Part shown: piece after piece, positions 49,968 through 64,000 of the stretch
Position numbering within the stretch: position 1 is the first letter of the stretch
How the letters are laid out: each line of letters opens with the position of its first letter
Assembly: GCA_950295325.1 (NCBI GenBank)
Contig: OX485807.1
Coordinates: 26,259,666 to 26,323,665 of the forward strand
Origin: Polytrichum commune
Taxonomy: Eukaryota; Streptophyta; Polytrichopsida; Polytrichales; Polytrichaceae
Direction: 5' to 3'
Length of the DNA stretch: 64,000 bases
Translations under genes and position numbers: made by a program
Notes under the pieces: model-generated
The model's database searches: none
Told to the model about the DNA's origin: nothing
What the model saw: only the letters and a program-made list of their open reading frames with translations

Positions 49968-50123
49968 AGAGTAACCAACATAGCAGGCCCAAAGAGCATA
50001 CGAACTACAACCCTGCACCGTAGACAAGGAGATAGAGGAGTCGAGAGAAGGAGAACCCGAGAGGCAAAGTACACACAGAAGGAGCGGGCTCGGGACCTAG
50101 TGAGCTCGGGCTCCGGGAGCAGA

Positions 50124-51901
50124 ATGACCCAGCCAAAGACCTCTCACCGAAAGGGCTCGGGAGTCGAGGGGGGAGGACTAGCCCCAATCACCCTATCAAA
50201 ATTTTTTGGAGAGGACGAGGATATCATGGAGGTAGACTCTCCAGCTCAAAGTCTAAAGAGACTTTTAGAGGAAAAAGCAAAAAATCAAAGCAAAAGCGTA
50301 GCTCATGGTAAACGGACTAGAGAATTCACCAAGGGAACACCTAGTCAAAAGGTCACAGCTGAGGAGTCCGCCCTCGTACACCTAACCAAATTCAAATTTT
50401 GGTTAGGCTTTGAGACCATGGAGAAAATTGCTAAGGAGCAAGGCATTGAGGAGCTCTTCACAAACGAGTCCATTGCCGATCGAATTACGAGAGGCATCCC
50501 CCGCAAAGAGGCCGAAGAATTAGAGAGTGTAAGTATCTCTTATCCAAGAGTCCCTCAAACCCTTTACCCAAGTGAGAGGAGCGATGGCATAATGGGACAA
50601 CACCTTAATCTAACCCAACTCCCACAAGAGATAGAAATTGACCCCATTTCTAAACTCTCCATGGATTTTCACATTGCAATCCACTTTCAACTCCCCAACA
50701 ACCCTCTCTTGCACAACCACGTCAAAGAGCTAGTCAAAGAGAGGCTAAATGAGATGAAAATCCCATTAGGCACTAGCCTCATAGAGCCTATCTCAATTCT
50801 ATGCATGAGTGTGAAAAGGGGAGGAATGAAGGGAGTATGGGCCGGAATTATTAAACTCCACCTCCTCAACCCCCATATTGACGGAATTGCCTTGCTTACC
50901 GGACTTAGAGCCTTCATCCTTCACCTTGAGCCTCACTCAAGTGTTGGATGCCTAGGGAAAGTGTGTAAATCCTACCATACTATCGCTAGGATCAACAACC
51001 TATCAATCAAAATTACGAATGAAGCACTAGTGGGTATAACCGCCCACGACCTCTTTCTAGATGTCCTAGAAAATAGTTTTAGGAGAGGGCACAATTTCGA
51101 AATTGTGGAAGTCCAAAAGGGTGCCGCTAATAACCATGCCTACCTTGTCGCCCCCACCCCCTCCCAAGCAAAAAAGATACAAACCCTTCAAGTCTCTACC
51201 AACCATCTAATACTAGAGGGTCAAACTAAAAAGGGCCCCTCTCTTACCTTAGAACAAAAGGCTAAGAAAGAGGCCCTTCTTCTTACCTTCTACAACCTAC
51301 CTATCCGCATGAATATTGTGGATACCACCCTAGAGATCCGTAGAATCCTAGGGGCAAAAAACGTAGTGTCAATATGGTTTCATAAGGAGGATGGCCTAAG
51401 GCACAATGGAAGTGCTAATGTGGAGTGTCTCAACCCCTTTGTCTATAGAAAATTCCTAGGTAAAGAAAGATAGGGGCCTACCACGTAGAAATTACCCCGC
51501 ACCGGCGAAGTCTAGAGGGTAGCGAAAAACCCTCTAAGGAGTTACTAGCCAAATTTGGGTTTGAAGACACAAATACGTGTTTGGTAAACACGATCGAGGC
51601 TATTCAAAACCAAACAAATGGAGAAGCAAGCGCTACTAAGGAGGATGTTTTTACCGTGATGAAAGAGGCTATCGAGGAAGGTAATAAAAAACTTAAACTC
51701 GAACTTCATAAGGATATGAAGGAGCTCAAAAATGACATTGTAAAAGAAGCGCATATTTATGCGGATGAAATTAATGAAAAGCTCAAAATACAAATGTTGG
51801 ATATTCAAAGTACCCTAACCTTGGCGCTTAGGGGCATGCAACAAATTATGGGAGTGAGTAAATCAAACCTCTTGCTCAAAGATCAACCAAATGTGGAGTG
51901 A
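50124..51901 (+). pseudogene. LINE ORF1 protein, broken by one frameshift
   Basis: The first ATG of the open frame is at 50124. The frame runs to TAG at 51471-51473, but the adjacent frame takes over smoothly from about 51470 (IGAYHVEITPHRRSLEGS...) and continues to TGA 51899-51901. Together they give about 590 residues broken by a single indel around 51461-51470. The central part (HIAIHFQLPNNPLLHNHVKE) and the part near 51290-51460 (TFYNLPIRMNIVDTTLEIRR) look like compact alpha/beta, possibly RRM-like nucleic-acid-binding modules. The tail (51600-51850) is a Lys/Glu coiled coil (EEGNKKLKLELHKDMKELKN). I do not recognise the usual plant-L1 ORF1 zinc knuckle. ORF1 of LINEs binds RNA and forms the RNP; that role is inferred from position. 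Confidence 0.7.
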
Positions 51902-54387
51902 CCACAAATCGCCTAGAACCCAAAAAGTATTTACCAAAATACTATACTATACAAATCTACGTATATATACGTATACAATACATACATACTACAATAAACA
52001 CAAAAGGTATTATACAATACCAAATAAACCGTATGACGTACAAAAACAAAATACGGCCCCTATACCCAAACAAATACAATACAAAACAAAAAACCATTTA
52101 CCATATACTCATACCAAAATACAATACTCCAAATAACCGTATGATACACAAATACGAAATACGTCCCCCGTACCCAACAAAATGCAATATACAACAAAAA
52201 ACTACTACTCAACCAATACCCAAGCAAAAATACAAAATCCACACACAAAACAAAAAACATAGAAAACACCGCCATACATTACACAACAAAGACTCAAATC
52301 ACCCCTCTAACCCAAAATACCTCCAACTACATTCAAGAACCAACCGTCAAACAAAACACCGAAAAAACCTAAAACAAATACTTCATCCAACTAACAAAAT
52401 ACACCCAAAAGACACATTTTTTCCAAAACGGAACTCACATCCAAAACAAGAAATACATCCTAACTCAAAAACATACCCACAAAATGTATTACACCCTAAA
52501 CACCACCCCCATCCAACCCCCAAACAATGCCCCCCCACAAAACCCAACTCAATAACAAAAAGATATAAATCACAACCCATACCTAATAAACTACCGTTCT
52601 CAACACCAAACTACCACTCAAATTACAAATACCCAAAAAAAAAAATGGCCTCGGCCTACCGGCCTCGCCATAAAACTAAATACAAAAATAACTTTACACA
52701 ATATTGGGGAACTAACCTAACTACAAGCAAACATACAAAATTACAATCCATACCTAAACAACTAAAAAACATTATACCCACCCCACCCATCACCCCCCCT
52801 ATAACAAAATCCACACCAAACAAATACCACAAATCAAACAAGAACAAACCAAAGATACCTTCATCATGCATCCAAATCAAAGATACCTTCACCATACCAA
52901 CAAACAAACTTCATCTTACATCCAAACCACATCTAAAATATAAGTTGCATCCTAAACAAAGGACGTACTCAAAACTAAATCCCTCCCTCACACCTAAACA
53001 ATCAAATAACATAATACACAACCCGAACTCCGTTAAATACTCAAAATTCATACCACATCCAAGGCACCTCCTTCATCCAAGACGCGGATCCCATCCAAAA
53101 TACATAAACTACCCAAAATACATATCTCATCCAAAACATAACCCACATTATGAACTAGGAACCTACCCTAACCTAATCAATTACCCTCCGCCCAATCAAC
53201 TAAGAAATATAACATCCCCCCCACAACAACATACCCACCCAAAACAAAAACCACCACGGCCCCACCCAATATACTACCCTCACATAAGATATAGTCCCCA
53301 CTTAAAGCACAATCTCCATCCAAGAAACAAGCTACATCCAAATTATAAAGTCCACCTAAAACATAAACTTCATCCAAAAACCAAACTATCCCCAAACCAC
53401 AAACACCCCCAACTTCGCTCACAATACATACCTCATCCAAAACATAGACTCCATCTAAGACACATCTCTCATCCAAATAATAAACTTCATCCGAAATATA
53501 GAATACACTCAAAAGTTAAACTCTACCTAAAAAACAAAGTGCATCCACAACAATGCCCAAAACATAATACCCACCCAAAGCAAGAAAACCAACCTAACCT
53601 AGAGCCCCATCCACTATCTAAAATACATCCCAACCTAAGCTCAAAAAGCACACCATACCCTAGCTCCAAACCCAACCTCCACTCGAAAAACAAATTATGT
53701 CAAAACTACGAAATGACCGTGACCTACCATCTTCATCACAAACCAAACCCTATCACAACCAAATGGAAACCAAGCACAACTACAAAACACGTACTCCAAG
53801 ACAACTCCCATACACACCTAACAACTAAATACAACACCCACCAAAACCACAAACCATTCCCCAAAAACCACCCCTACCCAAAACTAAATATACATATTAA
53901 ACAAAAATTCAACCCGAAAAACAAAGCAACCTCAACATACCAACCTCACCTCTCAACAAATGCCAAAGCACACCTACAAAACAAATGCTCCAAAAATAAA
54001 CCCTACCCTAGCTTCGAACACCATAACAAAATCAAACACCTATTAAGCCCTCATATAAAATACCAACCCCACCCAAAAAACACAATGGCCTCGGCCTACC
54101 GGCCTCGCCACACAAATAATAACAAATACCACTTCATAAATAATTGGAAACCTAACTCAATAACAAGCCAAAAATCTACAAATAATACGAAACCACACTT
54201 CTCACCCATACAAATAGAAAAAACCATACCCGCTATACCTAACCTATTTTCCACAACCAAATGTACAATCACAATATATCTAAAAACAAACATGAAAAAC
54301 CCCAAAATAATTCACTTCCACGGATACTACTTCATTAACAAACTAGAATTACTAAAATGCGGAGACATAGAATCCAACCCCGGACCA
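51898..54387 (+). CDS. LINE ORF2 N-terminal part: His-Pro-Lys hexapeptide-repeat protein ending in 2A
   Basis: An 830-codon stretch is open up to the 2A site although the DNA is A/C-rich. The frame overlaps the ORF1 stop (GTGA at 51898-51901), and its first in-frame ATG is 52033. Residues around 52033 and 52141 are a 36-codon direct repeat (RM.YK/HKxxIRPxYP). From 52381 to about 53680 the protein is built of hexapeptides of the type [hydrophobic]-H-P-K-x-x. Two copies of MASAYRPRH (52645 and 54085) plus a diverged third (53713) punctuate it. The product would be strongly basic, low-complexity and probably disordered, suited to nucleic-acid binding; that is inference. No known domain is recognised. 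The copy is open here but lies in a dead element. Confidence 0.65.
52033..52240 (+). repeat. 36-codon tandem direct repeat in ORF2
   Basis: ATG 52033 and ATG 52141 each begin a block with the pattern RMxxKxxIRPxYPxKxNxxQKT. The spacing is 108 nt, a whole number of codons. Confidence 0.75.
52381..53680 (+). repeat. 18-nt/hexapeptide HPK repeat array
   Basis: Runs such as LHPTNK-IHPKDT, KLHPNY-KVHLKH-KLHPKT and LHPKYR-IHSKVK-LYLKNK show a six-residue period with His-Pro-Lys at fixed positions, reflecting a degenerate CATCCAAAA-type 18-nt DNA repeat. The array is interrupted by the MASAYRPRH block and unrelated sequence at about 52550-52900. Confidence 0.8.
52645..52670 (+). repeat. 26-bp GC-rich exact repeat, copy 1 (encodes MASAYRPR)
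   Basis: It starts ATGGCCTCGGCCTACCGGCC and is repeated exactly at 54085-54110, 1440 nt (480 codons) downstream in the same frame. It stands out as GC-rich in a G-poor region. Flanking residues of the two copies are also related (K..F...W..N..TS). Confidence 0.9.
54085..54110 (+). repeat. 26-bp GC-rich exact repeat, copy 2
   Basis: This is identical to 52645-52670. It opens the roughly 90-codon segment that leads directly into the 2A-like motif. Confidence 0.9.
54349..54387 (+). other. 2A-like ribosome-skipping motif (LLKCGDIESNPGP)
   Basis: The residues are in the ORF2 frame and fit the 2A consensus D-(V/I)-E-x-N-P-G-P with the preferred Gly before Asp and the upstream LLxxG. By known 2A biochemistry, the ribosome would skip the bond between Gly (54382-54384) and Pro (54385-54387). 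That would release the His-Pro-Lys protein with a C-terminal 2A tail and start the EN-RT-RNH protein with Pro. 2A motifs are known in trypanosome L1Tc and in several animal APE-type LINEs. I know of none described in land plants, although I cannot search. Confidence 0.9.
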
Positions 54388-55783
54388 ATGCCTAACATCC
54401 TACATACGCATCCTGCTACACACAAAAAGAGAGCCAAGATATACTTCATTCCAAACACTATCAAACTACAACCTGAATACCAACACATAGCAAATACATT
54501 TGCTCCCATACTAAGAAATACACACCCTCTACACCATCAAGCAATAATTACCCACCCACATCTACACCAATACATCCAAACACAAAGGCAATCACCACCA
54601 ACCCATATGCTATATGCTATATGCTATAGTCATCACCATCCACCCCTCAATAGACACATGCAATAGCATACTAGCCCAACCCCAAAACTACCACTTTAAC
54701 GACATATGAACCAACACACTAATTATTAGACTAGCTAACCTCACCAACCCCCCCGAAAGACACATACAGACACCGCACCCCTACACAATATTCATAGAAA
54801 ACAATCAACATATAATACTCTCCCAAAACTCAATACACACCAAAATATACGATTTCATCCACAACCAAGCCACCACACCCACACCAATCACCCTCAAGAA
54901 AGAATTCCCCTTCCTTCCAAACCAGTTAATAACCGAAACACTTAGATGTTTAGAAAATATAAGCGAATACTCACACCCACGCCCACTCCCGGCCGCTCCC
55001 ACACCAATCACAAGAATAAACTCTAACACCGAGCACGAAACAAGCATAATAACTTGGAATGCGTCATCGCTCAACACATCACTACCAAACTTACAAGATT
55101 TAATCAACAACTCTCTAAATAACACAGCAATCATTCATATCCAAGAAACCAAACTCACTGCAAACAAATCTACTAAATATATACAAAACTTATTTCCGGA
55201 ATTCAAACTCACTTTCAACAACACACACGCACTCACGAGGTGCATCCAACAAAGAATGCCCTATACCCCGGAAGAGGTGGCCTACTCACACTTATCCATC
55301 ACAAATATGCATTCCCAGGAAATGTCACCAAAATTCCCACACCAGCAAACATCTCCCCGTACCTACAAGTAATAAAAATAAACAACCATCCACTAACACC
55401 TTGGCTAATTATACATATGTATATGCCTACGCACCTAGAAGACACATGTCTTATCCCACACCTTAAGAATGAAATCACTAAACAAATCACTACACACCCC
55501 AATCACATATACACACTGTGCGGTGACTTTAACAGAGATATTGCACTTAAGGACAGACAAAATAACAACACTACTACCCCCCCCACAAGAAGAGGACTTC
55601 CAATGGAAAAATTTTACAACATCTCTCGACTTAGAATATATCACTACCAACACTAGTATCTCCAGACAAGGTGGCTACAACTACACATCAACAAGCCTAA
55701 TAAATGGTTTCTACATTCACTCCCCTGACAACAGCAAATTTACCTCCACTACAAATACAAACATGAATCTAAATTCAGATCAC
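54388..55783 (+). pseudogene. LINE ORF2 APE endonuclease region
   Basis: About 210 residues of linker follow the 2A. The AP-endonuclease-like fold is marked by TWNASSL (55052 on), IQETKL with catalytic Glu at 55145, GRGGLL, MYMPTH, GDFNRDI (55522 on) and NSDHYPV (Asp 55778, His 55781). All hallmark residues of the LINE target-nicking endonuclease are readable. The frame is broken by an ATATGCT heptamer repeat (54605-54628), a TGA at 54704, a shift near 55215-55250, and a C8 run at 55576-55583. After these the frame used is constant for most of the element. Confidence 0.85.
54605..54628 (+). repeat. Three tandem ATATGCT heptamers at a frame break
   Basis: Three copies of ATATGCT are followed by ATAG. 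The frame open upstream (that of the 2A) closes soon after, and the frame used downstream is displaced by exactly one nucleotide. Gain of one 7-nt unit would explain this. Confidence 0.75.
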
Positions 55784-57670
55784 TACCCAGTCACATTACA
55801 CATCCCACACAACACACTTATAGCTAGACCTCCGCCCTCTACAAACACCACACCAACTAGGATACTGAACCCGATATCACCGGAAAACCTAGAAAAATTT
55901 AACATAACATTCTTCGAAGAAAACTCCACCCAACTTAAAGAACTTACCACACTATTAGAAGACAACCAACACTTAACACCTGATCAATGGCAAAATGCCT
56001 GCACATCATTGGACTACATTATAAACAAAATCTCAGAAACAATTGGAAAAACCTGCAAAGCAGACCCTCTACCCAACCTCACAAACAAAACATCACAACA
56101 AGGTGGTTTTTTACCACGCAAACTAGCTAGAGAATGGAAAAGACACCTCAACACATATCACCTCATCAGGAAAACCATTTACATTGTACAAAATGACCCA
56201 AGCTGGCAAGTACACCCCATCCTAAACGATATCCGAAACCACCAACACGTCAACATCCCGCACCCACTTACTACAACAACATCTCCTATCGAATGGATTG
56301 ATACCATAGCAACTATCGCAAAAACGGCAAATAAAGAAGCCAGGAAAATTACCACAAAATACACCAGAGACTACATCCTAAAAGCCGTATCAAAATACCG
56401 TCAAATGTATGAAAAAAACCCCAAGAAAATAAATCGGAAAGTCTTCAAGAACACTGAAACCTCACCTCTTGACTCCATCATTGATAGACAAAACAACATA
56501 TTAACCAACCCTGAAGACATTGCTTCAGAGATTTACGCACAACAATCCATCAGTAACCGCCCAACAGTCCCCACATGCCACTATCAAAATACACATCCAA
56601 TTCACTGTTCATGTGGAGTAAGGCAATACCCTTGGCACGACTTAGATGGATACATAATCGACAGACGAGGAGAACCCCAAATCCCCTTGCACACATACTT
56701 TGATCAAGAAACATACGACTTTTGTCTTAAAAACCTAAGCAATAATAAAGTCCCAGGTCCAGACAAAATCCCCAACTCAATTCTAAAAAATTGCCTCCAC
56801 GCTTTCACAAAATATTGTTTCTATTCTTTAAACACTGCTATAAACAAAAACAAATCCCAGCATCATGGAAAACTAGACTAACAGTTTTACTATATAAAAA
56901 AGGTAACCCATCACAACAAACAAATCACAGACCTATTGCACTAGCTAACACTATATATAAATTATACACAAGCACATTAACCTCTATCCTATCAGCATAC
57001 GGAGAAAGATACCAAATACTAAACGATAGCCAAGAAGGGTTCAGAGCAGAAATAAGCATCTCCAGACAAATCCAAATACTAATTGCAGCGCTTGAAGACG
57101 CCAGACTCACAAATCAAGATATATATATACATTCTTTACATTGACTTCAAAAACGCCTTTGGTTCCATTGACCACGCCAGACTATTAGACATAATGAAAG
57201 ACCTGGGTTATCCCAATGACTCCATAAACCTCATAGGAAACATATACTCACAATCATCAACCATATTTACCAACGAACACTTCGGAAAAATTCTACTAAT
57301 CCACATCCAAAGAGGTACAATACAAGGCGATACCCTTAGCCCATATCTATTAATCATATTCTTGGAACCCCTACTTAGATGGCTGCAACAAGGAAATAAT
57401 GGATATACCTTCGGTACGTCGAGAGTGAAAATCTCATCAGCAGCATATGTAGACGATCTTGCAGCAATCGCCAACAAACTAGAAGCATTACAAACACAAT
57501 TAAACAAACTAGATAAATTCTGTGAATGGACAGGAATGGACCTAGGTATATCAAAATGTGCAGTGACTGGATGCCCAAACAAATCTAAACTTAACCCCAC
57601 AACCTTCAAGGCCCTAATCCAATCCACTAACATAAATTATAGAAACCAACCTATACCAGTCCTAAACTAA
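55784..57670 (+). pseudogene. LINE ORF2 reverse transcriptase
   Basis: RT motifs in order: NNKVPGPDKIPNSILK (about 56735-56790); RLTVLLYKKGNPSQQTNHRP then IALANTIYKLY (56878-56965, in a shifted frame); YIDFKNAFGSIDH with catalytic Asp 57143; QRGTIQGDTLSPY (57308-57350); AAYVDDLAAIA with the catalytic Asp pair 57452-57457; and GISKCAVTG. The catalytic box is YVDD rather than the FADD of plant L1 elements. Frame breaks are an A-rich run near 56840-56855 and an (AT)n run at about 57118-57130; the section between is displaced by one. A TAA closes the frame at 57668. The enzyme would perform target-primed reverse transcription. Confidence 0.9.
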
Positions 57671-58813
57671 CATGAACCCTATACATACCTAGGAATAAAT
57701 CTTGCACCATCATTCAAATAGAAAACACAAATAAATACCATCACAGCTAAAGTAATCAAACAATGTCAAGCCCTCGTAGCTTGCCCAGCTACTATGAAAC
57801 AAAAAATCAACATGGCAGACACAGTCATACGTGTTGGAATAGCATATAGTTTTTATGCAGTACTATACTCCATACCAGCCATAAAAAAACTAGACAAAAA
57901 AATCATCGCACTCCATAAAACAATATGCGGAATACCTAAATGCACATCTAATATTGCCACGCAACTCCCCCACAACCTATTTGGAATTGAAGCATTTTCA
58001 TTACAAAATGCCTATCTAAGGTGCATTGGAGAACAATTACAAAATGCCCTCAATGACAAAGGGAGAATTGGGAGAATATATACCAGTCTAGTACAATTCA
58101 TACTCGCCACACATGGGGGCTCTCAAGAAATCACTCGCATTAAATACCACCACTGTGTTAGGTCACCCATCACTAGAACATTGTTCCTGCTAAAACATAA
58201 AGCCGGAGTCCATCTAAAAAGCATAATAAATAACTTTCTACTAACCCCATCCTCACTTGAAACTGCTTGGATGCAAGAAGCACAAATGCTACATGGCCTA
58301 AACTCCAACATCTCACTTAAACTACTACACAAATTACTTATACATAATATAACCACACTAGACCAAATTACCTTGCCTAATGGTACCACTCTGATGAACA
58401 AGGACGAATTCAAAATCTACCACTTCACTCCTTCTAAACTTATCCAAAGCGCACTTAACATAGCTAATGAACTATTTTGCCACCCCCCCTGCAATCAATG
58501 CCCCCTACCCTGCCAACAACACCACCCACCAAGATCCCTCAAAAACAAATATATAATAAGAAATCACAACATTCTACCTCACACACCGACCGCCCCCGTA
58601 CACCCTCTTAACCCCCCCATCCCCCATCTACCTCCTCCCCCCAACAACATGCTTAAAGACCCCCGACAATTTCCCATACACAAAATACTCGATCACAAAC
58701 AAAAACAATCTAACGACCACAATGGAATAAAAAGAACAGTTACGTCATATATGTGTCAATGGACCACAACAAATAACAACACATATAATAAATGGCGAAC
58801 CCAAAGGGACCTA
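57671..58813 (+). pseudogene. LINE ORF2 post-RT region with Cys cluster
   Basis: The RT frame continues past TAA (57668) and a TAG (about 57719), through HEPYTYLGINL (the typical YLG motif after the RT fingers and palm) and on for about 340 codons. A Cys cluster, CHPPCNQCPLPC (58478-58513), is spaced C-x3-C-x2-C-x3-C and is followed by His residues, a probable zinc-binding element. The frame runs directly into the transposon insertion at 58814 and resumes on its far side. Confidence 0.75.
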
Positions 58814-59756
58814 CCGTAGGTTCATAGCTGGTTCGACACATGTTAGCCGAATAATTAATTAAATTTAAAAAAGTCCGTTCGGCACCTAAAAATAGAATAT
58901 TCATATTTTTGGCAATTTTCTCTTTCAATTTTAAAATTTCGGCTTAAATTCATTTTCTATCTTCTATTTAAGCTTATATCTTGTACATATCTCTTGCATT
59001 GAATGACAAGTAAGATGTGAGTGAAGAGTTGAGAATGCTCTGTGCTTTATGCAAGTAGAGTGGAGTTGTGTTCAACAATGCATATGGGATATGTAAACTT
59101 TGAGGTGAAGCACCGAGTTAGACTTCATTTTTATATCACGCATAACTTTTGCATAGAGTCTTCAAATGACATAAAATTTGTTGGAGGTGGAAGATTACTT
59201 GATTTCTAAACTTTTCTTAGACCAACAAAATTCCAAAAAAGTTGATCTTCTATGCACAAATGAGCTCCGAAAAACTGTTATGAACGCATTTTAATTTTTT
59301 GATCTTTACACGGCTGCAATGTTTTGTCCATATCTTTTGCATAAAGACTTATTTTGACACAAAACTTGTTGGAGGTGGAAGAAGGATTGATTTCTCAACT
59401 TTTGTTAGTTGGACAAAATTCTATAAAACTTCATCTTCTATGCTCAATTGGACTCCAAAAATTTGTGTACAACACATTTGAAAAGCCTCACCTAGAGTCT
59501 TGCTACTTCTTAACCCATATTCTTTGTGGACTAATGTAAGTGAGCTTGATTACAAAAGGAGCACCTTCTCTCTTTCAAAATTCACATATGCTTCCACTGT
59601 AAGTAAAAACTCTAGTGAGAAGTAAAAATTTCTTACTTTTCAGAAATTTTGAAAAATAATTAATTTCATATTCGGCAAAAAATGCCAATAATATTCCAAA
59701 TTTTTCGGCATCTATTTTTAGAATTATTTTCTGTCGAACCAGCTATGAACCTACGG
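58814..59756. mobile_element. 943-bp TIR element in the LINE, TA target duplication
   Basis: The ends are 25-bp perfect inverted repeats (58814-58838 and 59732-59756), beginning CCGTAGGTTCATAGCTGGTT. TA lies on both sides (58812-58813 and 59757-59758). The weaker inverted similarity continues inward (TTCGGC...TAAAAATAGA). The interior is AT-rich, contains an internal repeated segment (CATAACTTTTGCATA, TTGTTGGAGGTGGAAGA at 59140-59200 and 59330-59400), and has no transposase. TA duplication and TIRs fit a Tc1/mariner-superfamily non-autonomous element (Stowaway-like, but long). Confidence 0.92.
59140..59480. repeat. Internal ~190-bp duplication within the TIR element
   Basis: Two segments share CATATCTTTTGCATA/CATAACTTTTGCATAG, TTTGTTGGAGGTGGAAGA, TTGATTTCT.AACTTTTGTTAG, CAAAATTC, TTCATCTTCTATGC and TCCAAAAA. 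This is non-coding. Confidence 0.65.
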
Positions 59757-60900
59757 TATACCCCTACTGTGAAGCCAACATATGCAATCACAACACAAAC
59801 CTGCTTATCCAATATTACACAGAAAGACAACACAATCATTTTTCAAACATCATTAACGCTTACTTCACCACGGAACAACACCGAGACACAAGATACATCA
59901 CACCATCCACAATAATTCCGCTAGCACATATCTCTATTAGTGAATGCAACCCATAAAACGACATTGAAACAAATTCTGATAATATCCAAACACAATTCGA
60001 TGTCGCCCACATATACGAAGACAATGGAAGGCATCTCATCACCATCCCGAAAGCTAGACTAACATGGCTATGGAAACAATACCAATTGGCAAAAAATACC
60101 ACACATGGTCTAGAACCATCTACCCAATCATTCGAAACTGAAATTGTCTGGCTATACCAAAGATACAAATACCGTATCCCAAAGAACGATCCACTCAAAA
60201 GAGCCCAATATACAATACCAACTCAAATACTGGATCTACTAATTAGAACATTCAATATTACCTACTCATACTTTTCATCCCCAGTTACATGTCCTACACA
60301 ATTCATCCAATTCTACTCACCCTTTTCACGAGACATAATATTTGGATCCTTAGGAAAAATGTTTGACTATAAATGGCAAGGAATTGGATATGCACATCCT
60401 CACACCTCAACATACCTACAACAAGCCATTCACTGGGCACGCATGGCGGCCCAAAATGACCCTTACACAATCACTATAATTATATCCCCAGACATTGACT
60501 GGTACCAAAACTCGAACCCACACACAGGCCCATTCCCAGACACACATGTCATTGCCCATTTTGCTGCTGACACAATCACATACGAAGAACCAACAATACC
60601 CCCCGAACTCAATACTACAAGGAAAGAACCATCTACCATGCAAATATTCTGTATCCATCACCAAAATAATAACATAGGTACCTACGAACAAATAAAGCTA
60701 ATACACGACACAGCAAATAACCTCCAAATATTACAAAGCCACACTCAAATTGCACCACCCACCCCTCCGAACATCACCGTTAACCCTAGTAAAAAATGGG
60801 CTAAATCAAACTACCCAAACACACCCCTATACAATAATAACCCCACCCCACAACTCCCAAACTACTAAACCAACTTACCACTAAAATTCCACCCCCAATT
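59757..60900 (+). pseudogene. LINE ORF2 spacer between Cys cluster and RNase H
   Basis: With the 945 nt of insertion plus TA removed, the upstream frame carries on through YPYCEANICNHN to a TAA at 59954-59956 and then for about 300 more codons, including KARLTWLWKQYQLAKNTTHG and AIHWARMAAQNDPY. A second TAA occurs at about 60866. I recognise no domain, but some LINEs carry an uncharacterised segment here. Both stops can be derived from CAA by one C-to-T change. Confidence 0.65.
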
Positions 60901-61275
60901 TAGCTACTACACAGATGGATCCTTTATAAAACCCAAAGAAATTGCCCCTGGAGTATGGAGAAGAGAAAGAGCTGGATACGGTATCTATAGCCCCAAAGGC
61001 TTAAATATCGCTAAAAGACTCCATGGACATCAAAACATACTATGTGCAGAAATGATGGCTATACACAAAACACTAAGAATCATCAATACACAATTCCCTA
61101 ATGAACCCGCATTTATATTCACAGACAGTCTAAATGTACTATATCTACTCAACACACAAATTAAACACCCCACTCTCCATAATAGTCACCCAGACCAAAC
61201 CACATTCAACTCCATGGTAAAAATCCTCCAAGACCGTACTGTGGAGGGCACCTTCAACCTTCCAGCCTCAGACGG
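60901..61275 (+). pseudogene. LINE RNase H domain, N-terminal part
   Basis: The first three acidic active-site residues are visible: Asp in YYTDGSF (60914-60916), Glu in CAEMMAIHKTL (61049-61051) and Asp in FTDSLNVLYLL (61124-61126). The domain stops at NLPASDG, where the solo-LTR-like insertion begins. RNase H would remove RNA from RNA:DNA hybrids in retrotransposition. Confidence 0.85.
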
Positions 61276-62844
61276 TGTAACCCGCTGCTGAACCGGTTTA
61301 CATGGAAGTTACTCCCACCAAAATTAGATCTTCTCTTCTCTAAGTCTCGTGAAGGTGTTTGCATTCTTCTGTATCTCAATTCCGTAACATGCAGTTCCAA
61401 TATCCTTATAAACTCTCTAAGAGTAGTTGGTCTAAGACTTATGTTTCCCTGAATCTAATGTCAAGGTTTGGTGTTCCTAAACCTTTAAATAGGTTTAGTA
61501 ACACAATGCTTTTCTTAATCAAGAATATTGTGTTCAAGACCCTTTTATAAATCCCTAGGGATAAAGTGTCCAAGTTGTCAAGTTTATGTTCCCCGAAAGT
61601 GCCCTTAACGAGAACACTTCTACAATATCTCTCAGTATGTAGTTCCTTTTAAATAATCTCTTAAATGGATAGGTACCTTAGACCTTAAGCTAATGTTTCT
61701 CAAACGTGTAATGTCAAGGTTAAGTGTTTCCCCGAGAGAAACATCCTCATACCATATCTTTCATGATTGAATTCATCTAAAACATATTTCCAAGTTTATA
61801 ACTCTCGTAATTTGAAACCATCTAAATTCTTCTACCCACAATATCTTTCATGTTTTGAATTTAGACCCTATCGATTTATAATCTTATATAGGATACTTAT
61901 TCATTCCTTTAGATTCCAATGCAATAATCTCTATTCCGTTCAAGTCTTCACACACATTGCCTAAATACCTTCATAAGGTAGCATACTCCCTCGCTAAGTC
62001 AAGACAACCTAGCGCGTGGAAGATACTTAGGCATAATTAAAATCCCTTTTACATTCCGTAATTTATAAGTGTATGCTCTCGAGCCAAATCTCTAAGGCTT
62101 AGCACATAATTGCTACTCCTTAGAAGATTCCAAATATTTGACTAAGGCCGGCTAAATCCCCAGAATATTCTCTTAGGCCGCCAAAATCCCTAAGTGCTAA
62201 GGTAGGGGATTTTGATGACGAGGTCACATCTCGGCCACCTTTGGTTCCAATCCTTTGCTTGCTTTATGATTTGATTAGTCTTATCAAGTCCTCTCAAGCA
62301 AACTAATCTCGGTGCCTCAAATCCAATGGCGTGAAAGGTAATGATGTGAACTTATGCTAAGGTGTCAAGCTTCGGCTTGAGGCATCATCACCTTTTCCAT
62401 CAATGAGCACTACCTAGGTGATTTGGTTTTCTTAGCTTAGATCCTCTTGCCTCAACCTCTTGCCAAGTACGAATAAGGTTTTAGGTGTGTAGTATCCCTT
62501 TTTAAGCTCAAGTGTTGCTACATTCATTCTCAATCATTTCCAATCATATTTCATATAAGATAATTTTCTTAATTGTTTTCTTAGGTGAATATGGTGTTCA
62601 CTTTCCTAAGGTCTTTTGAAAATCCCGCATACTCCAAATTCCTCCGTTATGCGGCCTCCTCCGAAATTTTGATTTACTAAGTCTTCAACTCCTTGTACGG
62701 ATTCTCAATCTCGCACGTTGCGTGATAACACTTTGTGAGCTCGCTCTGCTAACCGTGGTGAATGTCTTGCTCTCGCGAATGCGCCGCGGTACGCTAAAAA
62801 TCTCCCAACGTACCAAGTTCGCTCTGCCAATCCAATTGGAATTA

Positions 62845-62985
62845 CTAAGGCACCGCGGGTGCCTATATGTAATTCCAATGCACCGTGGGTGCCTATGGAA
62901 TTCCTAATGCGCCTCGGGCGCCTATGAATTTCCTAATGCACCTCGGGTGCCTAAGATTTCCTAACGCGCCTCGGGCGCCTAATGC
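62845..62985. repeat. Five tandem ~30-bp units, each with a GC palindrome
   Basis: Units carry GCACCGCGGGTGCC, GCACCGTGGGTGCC, GCGCCTCGGGCGCC, GCACCTCGGGTGCC and GCGCCTCGGGCGCC, separated by TATG.AATT.CCTAAT-type linkers. Each core can form a short stem. They lie in the presumed U3 of the solo LTR and may be protein-binding repeats. Confidence 0.85.
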
Positions 62986-63435
62986 GAACTCAAGACTCAA
63001 GATACGGGAGCTCGGACACTCATGTGAAATTTGCGGAATAGAATGAAGTGTATTAGGGCCCTCAAGTGGCCTCCTTATATAGTCTCACAAATCTACGTTT
63101 TCCTAGGATTTTTGTAAATGTTAGCTCGGCTAAATTTAGCAATTTATCTAATAATAGCCTGATTAAAAGTCTTTAACTCATAGAGATTAAATTTAAATAG
63201 TTTGAAATGTACTTCCTACCTACATGTGCTATGGTTGGATTCTCATCCATCCACCCCTAATTAAACATGTGCTCCTACACGGAATTATGTTCATGCCTTT
63301 TCATTTCTCAAATTGGGCCCTTTTTACATTCATTTCCAGTTACTATTTCGACCTTGTGGACTGGGCCCTATTCCCGGCCATAACTAGTTCGTTTGGTCCT
63401 ACTAGTAACCTAGCCTAGCTCGGACTAGTTCGTCC

Positions 63436-63442
63436 TTATAAA
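63436..63442 (+). promoter_or_regulatory. TATA-like box of the presumed LTR
   Basis: TTATAAA lies in the context CGTCCTTATAAAGGACC, with GC-rich sequence downstream and about 290 nt to the element end. Position and context fit an LTR core promoter. Confidence 0.5.
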
Positions 63443-63494
63443 GGACCCGGCAGTCTGCATTCGTTTGATAACCGGCTCTCGCCTCCCGATACTC

Positions 63495-63615
63495 GGCCAG
63501 CTCGTCTTCCTCTGTTGGCCGGTCTTGCCAGCTCGTCTTCTTTCGCCGGCCGGTCCGCCAGCTCATCCTCCTTCGTCCGCCAGCTCGTCCTCCTCACCCT
63601 GGCCAGCTCGGCCTC
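63495..63615 (+). repeat. GCCAGCTCGTC-type short repeats downstream of the TATA box
   Basis: GCCAGCTCGTC or close variants recur about five times, interleaved with GGCCGGTC. The reading frames passing through here (119 and 150 codons) are low-complexity and not convincing as genes. Confidence 0.6.
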
Positions 63616-63733
63616 GCTACCATTTCGCTCCTTGCAGCTTCCTAACGGCCCCGTTCTCACTTCGCTCTTCGCAGCTCCCAAACTCTCTTTTCCTGTCTCT
63701 GCCTTCTCACCTTCCCTGTTGCTGTGACGATCA

Positions 63734-64000
63734 CTTGGTGACACTACACGTACACAACCTATCACACTATACAAAGTCAGAGCACACGTCAACATTGACG
63801 GTAATGAAAAAGCGGATAAACTAGCAAAAGACGGGTTAGAATTAGAACACAGAATCGCCATACACCAATACGAACATGCCCACGCCACCCCATACTATTA
63901 TCAAAAGGACGTATGGGCCTCAATGGAAGAAGTCCCAGACAAAGGTCCAGTAAGATTCTTAGAAAAACAAATTAAAAAATATGACAGGGAAACCAATATA
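63734..64000 (+). pseudogene. LINE RNase H domain, C-terminal part, continuing past the window
   Basis: After the insertion the frame resumes with QPITLYKVRAHVNIDGNEKA and then DKLAKDGLE. This is the last RNase H motif, with catalytic Asp at 63815-63817 (GNEKAD). It is in the same frame as the first half, so the net insertion length (2463 nt) is a multiple of three. The frame stays open to the window end. The A/C-rich, G-poor composition returns here. Confidence 0.85.

Follow-up and report, generated by a model that had tools for sequence, protein, structure and literature searches.

A predicted StopGo/2A peptide in a Dualen/RandI-like retrotransposon of the moss Polytrichum commune

The window analyzed here, a stretch of 64,000 nucleotides from the 408-Mb genome of Polytrichum commune, carries one copy of a non-LTR retrotransposon, with all of its features on the forward strand. 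ORF1 occupies positions 49968–51901, with one frameshift near 51464, and ends at a TGA at 51899–51901. A second stop-to-stop frame in the ORF listing (51862–54666) opens before the end of ORF1 and thus overlaps it. This frame holds an A/C-rich leader (51902–54321) followed by a 22-residue 2A peptide (54322–54387), the core of which, LLKCGDIESNPGP, is the translation of 54349–54387. Downstream lie the N-terminal domain of the putative released enzyme (54388–54919), an APE-type endonuclease (55013–55828; motifs QETK, GDFN and SDHYPV), a reverse transcriptase (RT; 56540–57529; RVT_1, 1.4e-18), a PCIF1-like region (58463–60727; PF12237, 3.8e-13), RNase H (60728–63871; PF00075, 1.1e-5) and the start of a C-terminal region with a CCHC motif and a restriction-like endonuclease (63872–64000). 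The last continues beyond the window, its full stretch being C5:26323537-26324541. In the window the element is a defective pseudo-copy: it has frameshifts in ORF1, APE and RT, and two insertions, 58823–59757 and 61240–63749, split the PCIF1-like region and RNase H, respectively. The first insertion has terminal inverted repeats (CCGTAGGTTCATAGCTGGTTCGACA) and apparently a TA target, and looks like a MITE-like element within the LINE; the second is a 2.5-kb interruption with tandem repeats near 62837–62981. The genome has seven large contigs, which would fit n = 7. It contains four matches to the LFY SAM domain, and the PsaB encoded on its plastid contig has as best PDB matches 7ksq, 6l35 and 8htu, all from the moss Physcomitrium patens, in keeping with a moss host.

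Intact copies reveal the order of the element: ORF1, an overlapping second frame, leader, 2A, N-domain, APE, RT, PCIF1-like domain, RNase H and an R2-type restriction-like endonuclease. The copy at C1:17953298, for example, combines ORF1 with an ORF2 frame of 2625 aa that ends beside a poly(A) tract. The preliminary description of this locus had placed the 2A in the long ORF2 frame. This holds for intact copies, in which leader, 2A and APE/RT/RNase H form a single continuous frame, but not for the window, where the frame closes at 54666 and the APE, RT and RNase H lie in other frames. Three 2625-aa ORFs share 98–100% identity and therefore point to recent activity of the element. It appears to be abundant and mostly 5'-truncated, and a first look with the C-terminal domain as query gave 5839 candidates in the genome. 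An ordinary-looking LINE RT fragment adjoins one of the copies (L040).

We examined the domain content of the ORF2 protein. The N-domain had no Pfam match. The APE domain matched Exo_endo_phos_2 at 1.5e-4, which is under the curated cut-off, and its motifs QETK, GDFNRD, IDG and NSDH were invariant in three diverged copies. The RT of the intact copy matched RVT_1 at 1.5e-26. The C-terminal region combines a CCHC motif with a restriction-like endonuclease that has a PDIL-EFTYC core. Its structural model, of middling quality (mean pLDDT 52, with most of the core at 76–86), ranked six R2 retrotransposon structures first in Foldseek (5.6e-4 to 1.1e-2), and the same six led a second structure search (Z 10.2–10.8, with the next group at 8.7). 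This suggests an R2-type endonuclease in the same protein as the APE.

Between the RT and RNase H, every copy examined carries a region matching PCIF1_WW (3.6e-11 in the intact copy; L038:99-1418), the family of the cap m6Am methyltransferase. The catalytic motif of PCIF1, NPPF, is replaced by AHPHN or AFPTD. Searched against the PDB, an alignment of the region retrieved PCIF1 entries only, at E values of 0.32 and 0.91; an AlphaFold model of it was discarded (mean pLDDT 43). No report of PCIF1 in retroelements was found in the literature searched, the scanned pieces of ORF1 and ORF2 had no Pfam match to a cysteine protease, and no relatives were found in viral contigs with the RT as query. The initial classification as a LINE with APE, RT and RNase H is supported. 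However, the restriction-like endonuclease and the PCIF1-like domain set the element apart from an ordinary plant L1, and because of them it resembles, by its predicted domain set, Dualen/RandI elements instead.

The 2A motif itself was confirmed. Its core follows the D(V/I)ExNPGP pattern of 2A peptides, with a predicted skip between the G and the final P, and the hexapeptides preceding it in the element family (ELLKCG, LLLLCG and LILLSG) fit the L-rich class of viral StopGo sequences ending in (A/S/C)G (PMC12846837). Translated sequence flanks it in frame on both sides, as seen in the 2625-aa ORF and in the stop counts of the leader given below. Native 2A segments of the family include, besides that of the window, LLKCGDIEPNPGP, LLLLCGDIETNPGP and LLKGGDIKPNPGP. 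In one copy (L062) the leader contains a duplicated 2A, GDVEPNPGP and then GDIELNPGA, and the leaders of L002 and L041 contain decayed extra 2A copies upstream. The genome was searched for DNA encoding the GD[I/M]ExNPGP core by means of a degenerate pattern, with the reversed pattern as a control. There were 256 exact matches, versus 0 for the control, and 440 versus 3 when the pattern was relaxed and one mismatch was allowed. The biased composition of the leader (46% A, 32% C) could have raised the suspicion of a chance match in a low-complexity open frame. This explanation is refuted by the copy number, by the codon-position bias described below and by conservation across deeply diverged subfamilies. 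The original proposal, that a land-plant LINE contains a canonical 2A ahead of APE, RT and RNase H, is thus borne out by the translation, the genome-wide count and the related copies.

Related copies in the same genome lacking the motif would have spoken against that proposal. We therefore assembled a sample independent of the 2A, using the 189 residues downstream of it as query (676 candidates, 150 scored) and retaining the 60 matches on C1 and C2 in which the start was present. The exact core was found in 45 of the 60. Inspection of the other 15 did not refute the proposal: 13 carry a recognizable 2A decayed at one or two residues (GNIEPNPGP, RDIESNPGP, GDIKPNPGP in four copies, GDIELNRGP, GDIEPNPRP, RDIEPNP*P, GDIEPHPGP, GAIETNPGP, EDIETNPGP and GDIELKPGP), and in L046 and L055 the side upstream of the 2A has been lost or replaced. 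Across 57 copies of this sample, differences from the majority in the core amounted to 0.022, 0.007 and 0.193 per site at codon positions 1, 2 and 3, respectively. Substitutions are thus 9–28 times more common at third positions than at first or second ones, an excess that argues for selection on the 2A peptide.

The boundary of this constraint was located in eight S/P/L-type copies from the ratio of differences at positions 1+2 to those at position 3. The ratio was 0.86 and 0.71 in the leader (codons −110 to −14), 0.28 at codons −13 to −5, 0.29 in the 2A and 0.30–0.35 over the 110 codons that follow. Amino-acid constraint therefore sets in about 13 residues before GDIE (54322 in the window; 0.71–0.86 before, 0.28–0.30 onward). 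This places the boundary some 22 residues ahead of the skip site, a distance equal to the typical 2A length. In 19 more diverged copies the ratio was 0.16 in the core versus 0.83–0.90 upstream, the core value being biased since this set was picked by the motif. One copy (L043) has kept the 2A core while identity drops to 59% in the RT, 47% in the APE and 34% in the adjacent N-domain. Our combined comparisons of sequence divergence indicate purifying selection on the 2A peptide, which has been maintained even between subfamilies that diverged deeply.

Constraint does, however, run smoothly past the 2A, so the 2A and the N-domain could be one unit, and the peptide a conserved N-terminal motif of ORF2 that serves folding, targeting or protein contact without any skipping. 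The persistence of an intact family with an altered core, DIKPNPGP, would also suit such a role. Nonetheless, we consider it unlikely, since conservation falls on the StopGo-defining residues, the sequence just upstream matches a known class of StopGo contexts, and the residue after NPGP changes in distant lineages (M, S, L or I).

The family with the altered core comprises five near-identical copies (C1:51776018, C3:41258469, C4:34919625, C5:46487772 and C6:27637436) with GDIKPNPGP, a change of p14 from E to K, instead of GDIExNPGP. It is a young family with long open frames, two of which are complete, at 2663 and 2924 aa. PMC12846837 does not list p14 E>K among the active StopGo variants. 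Either the change is tolerated or the family does without skipping, and the family shows that a p14 residue not known to support activity is compatible with persistence of the element. Among our observations, this one speaks most strongly against the 2A being essential in every lineage, and the family is a natural test case for StopGo activity.

StopGo activity would release whatever lies upstream, which here is the leader. Its length ranges from 270 to 830 codons, about 800 to 2600 nt, across the copies compared, and it is nearly free of amino-acid constraint, with sequence and length varying freely, partly through repeats. Yet in the 2A frame it contains no stop codon in the window copy, L038, L039, L058 or L035, where 11–44 per frame would be expected. 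In the interval from the ORF1 stop to the 2A, the other two frames have 39 and 46 stops in the window copy, 38 and 45 in L039, and 19 and 19 in L038; the examined stretch before the 2A has 38 and 30 in L058, and 13 and 14 in L035. The frame is, by these counts, evidently kept open, which suggests that the leader is translated now or was until recently. A non-coding leader, favored early in the analysis because a GC-rich motif within it is read in different frames, is ruled out by the same counts. Both the open frame and the free variation are what one would see if the leader were disposable but had to remain open, and because its sequence is almost unconstrained, the leader is probably disposable and not a second functional protein. 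The preliminary description was correct to place the 2A ahead of the EN-RT-RNH enzyme, but what it took for a low-complexity basic protein on the upstream side is this leader, whose length varies and whose frame overlaps the end of ORF1 and continues beyond it.

The GC-rich motif, the 23-nt GGCCTCGGCCTACCGGCCTCGCC, occurs twice in the window leader by nucleotide motif search, at 52647–52669 and at 54087–54109, 274 nt upstream of the 2A core. It has 504 copies in the genome at ≤3 mismatches, versus 0 in the control. The A-lineage subfamilies examined retain it but read it in all three frames, and it is therefore conserved as nucleic acid; it was not found in L043, L027 or L062. Translation of ORF2 could conceivably begin at the AUG found at this motif, or at one directly after the NPGP, with the 2A region a translated leftover. 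Most A-lineage copies do have an AUG after NPGP, and the window has an ACAAUGG context at MASAYRPRH. We nevertheless judge such a start to be very improbable: the distant lineage lacks NPGP-M (NPGPSPP, NPGPLST, NPGPISQ), the GC-rich motif is in other frames in other subfamilies, and neither AUG accounts for a stop-free leader throughout or for selection on the 2A residues.

Entry into the leader frame appears to differ between lineages. In L038, L036, L037, the window copy and L039, the frame leaving ORF1 is −1, opens 22–121 nt before the ORF1 stop and has no AUG at its opening in the overlap. By contrast, in L043 and L058 the outgoing frame is +1 and an AUG overlaps the ORF1 stop (AUGAAUAG and AUGACUAG). 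These junctions suggest frameshifting or reinitiation at a non-AUG codon in the −1 group and AUG-stop coupling in the +1 group, and hence two putative routes into ORF2. No canonical −1 slippery heptamer was seen at the overlap by eye in five A-lineage junctions. ORF1 gave no meaningful match to the PDB. L058 seems to be chimeric, with the 5' part of one lineage and the 3' part of the other.

We consider it highly probable that the motif functions as a StopGo/2A and frees the enzyme from a disposable leader, in a moss non-LTR retrotransposon that has many copies and was active recently; the skipping and the fate of the leader are what we infer from the sequence. Where ORF1 ends, ribosomes would pass into the ORF2 frame, read the 270–830-codon leader and skip one peptide bond at NPG|P. 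The leader would be released, either alone or as a fusion to ORF1, and the enzyme, from N-domain through APE, RT, PCIF1-like domain and RNase H to the restriction-like endonuclease, would be a separate chain with Pro first. The 2A had been expected to provide a fixed ratio of two proteins, but if the ratio to ORF1 is fixed, the ORF1/ORF2 junction and not the 2A would determine it. More tentatively, and with slightly more doubt than belief, we propose a native land-plant recoding relay with two stages, in which ORF1 leads into an overlapping frame (by a −1 shift in one lineage and AUG-stop coupling in the other), through an open, variable leader, to a 2A that frees a dual-endonuclease enzyme, with the p14 E>K change of one young family representing either a previously unrecognized active form of StopGo or a case in which skipping was lost naturally.

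Natural StopGo has been described from RNA viruses and only seldom from cellular genomes. A selected 2A in hundreds of moss copies would add land plants to its natural range, and the host element has kept both types of LINE endonuclease. The moss element also provides 2A sequences native to plants for use in moss and plant expression, as well as natural variants for comparison of activity (DIK; S/P/T/L/I/Q at p15; duplicated 2A). Moreover, one may ask why a retrotransposon retains a long, unconstrained yet open leader merely to cut it off.

2A peptides in LINEs are known from trypanosomes (L1Tc/Ingi) and several animals (Odon et al. 2013, as cited in PMC4981915 and PMC12846837). As those sources describe them, these elements share with the moss element the D(V/I)ExNPGP core, the L-rich lead and a position in frame with an APE-RT protein. 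The moss element differs from them in its host, in also having RNase H, a restriction-like endonuclease and a PCIF1-like domain, and in the very long disposable leader, overlapping ORF1, before the 2A. Viral StopGo sequences of the L-rich hexapeptide class likewise have an LLLLSG-like hexapeptide before D(V/I)ExNPGP and S, P, T or L at p15 (PMC12846837), whereas the host of the moss 2A is a cellular retroelement. A 2026 survey noted that StopGo works in plants, with no natural use found in plant viruses and cellular use rare (PMC12846837). Our search of the open-access literature, outside of which two key papers lie, turned up no 2A in a plant LINE or in Dualen/RandI. Within the literature searched, a land-plant, dual-endonuclease host of a 2A thus looks new, and this would be the first natural 2A, of predicted activity, described in a land plant. 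Plant L1-clade LINEs share APE and RT with the moss element and can carry RNase H, but they have a different domain set and lack its C-terminal restriction-like endonuclease. In 2005, Kojima and Fujiwara reportedly described a cysteine protease in Dualen. In its domain set the moss element resembles Dualen/RandI of Chlamydomonas and other green algae, in which APE, RT, RNase H and a restriction-like endonuclease likewise occur in one element (PMC4640811, PMC8226300); the moss element is set apart by its PCIF1-like domain and by a poly(A) tail, in contrast to the (ATT)n or (CTATTT)n of algal RandI (PMC3747384).
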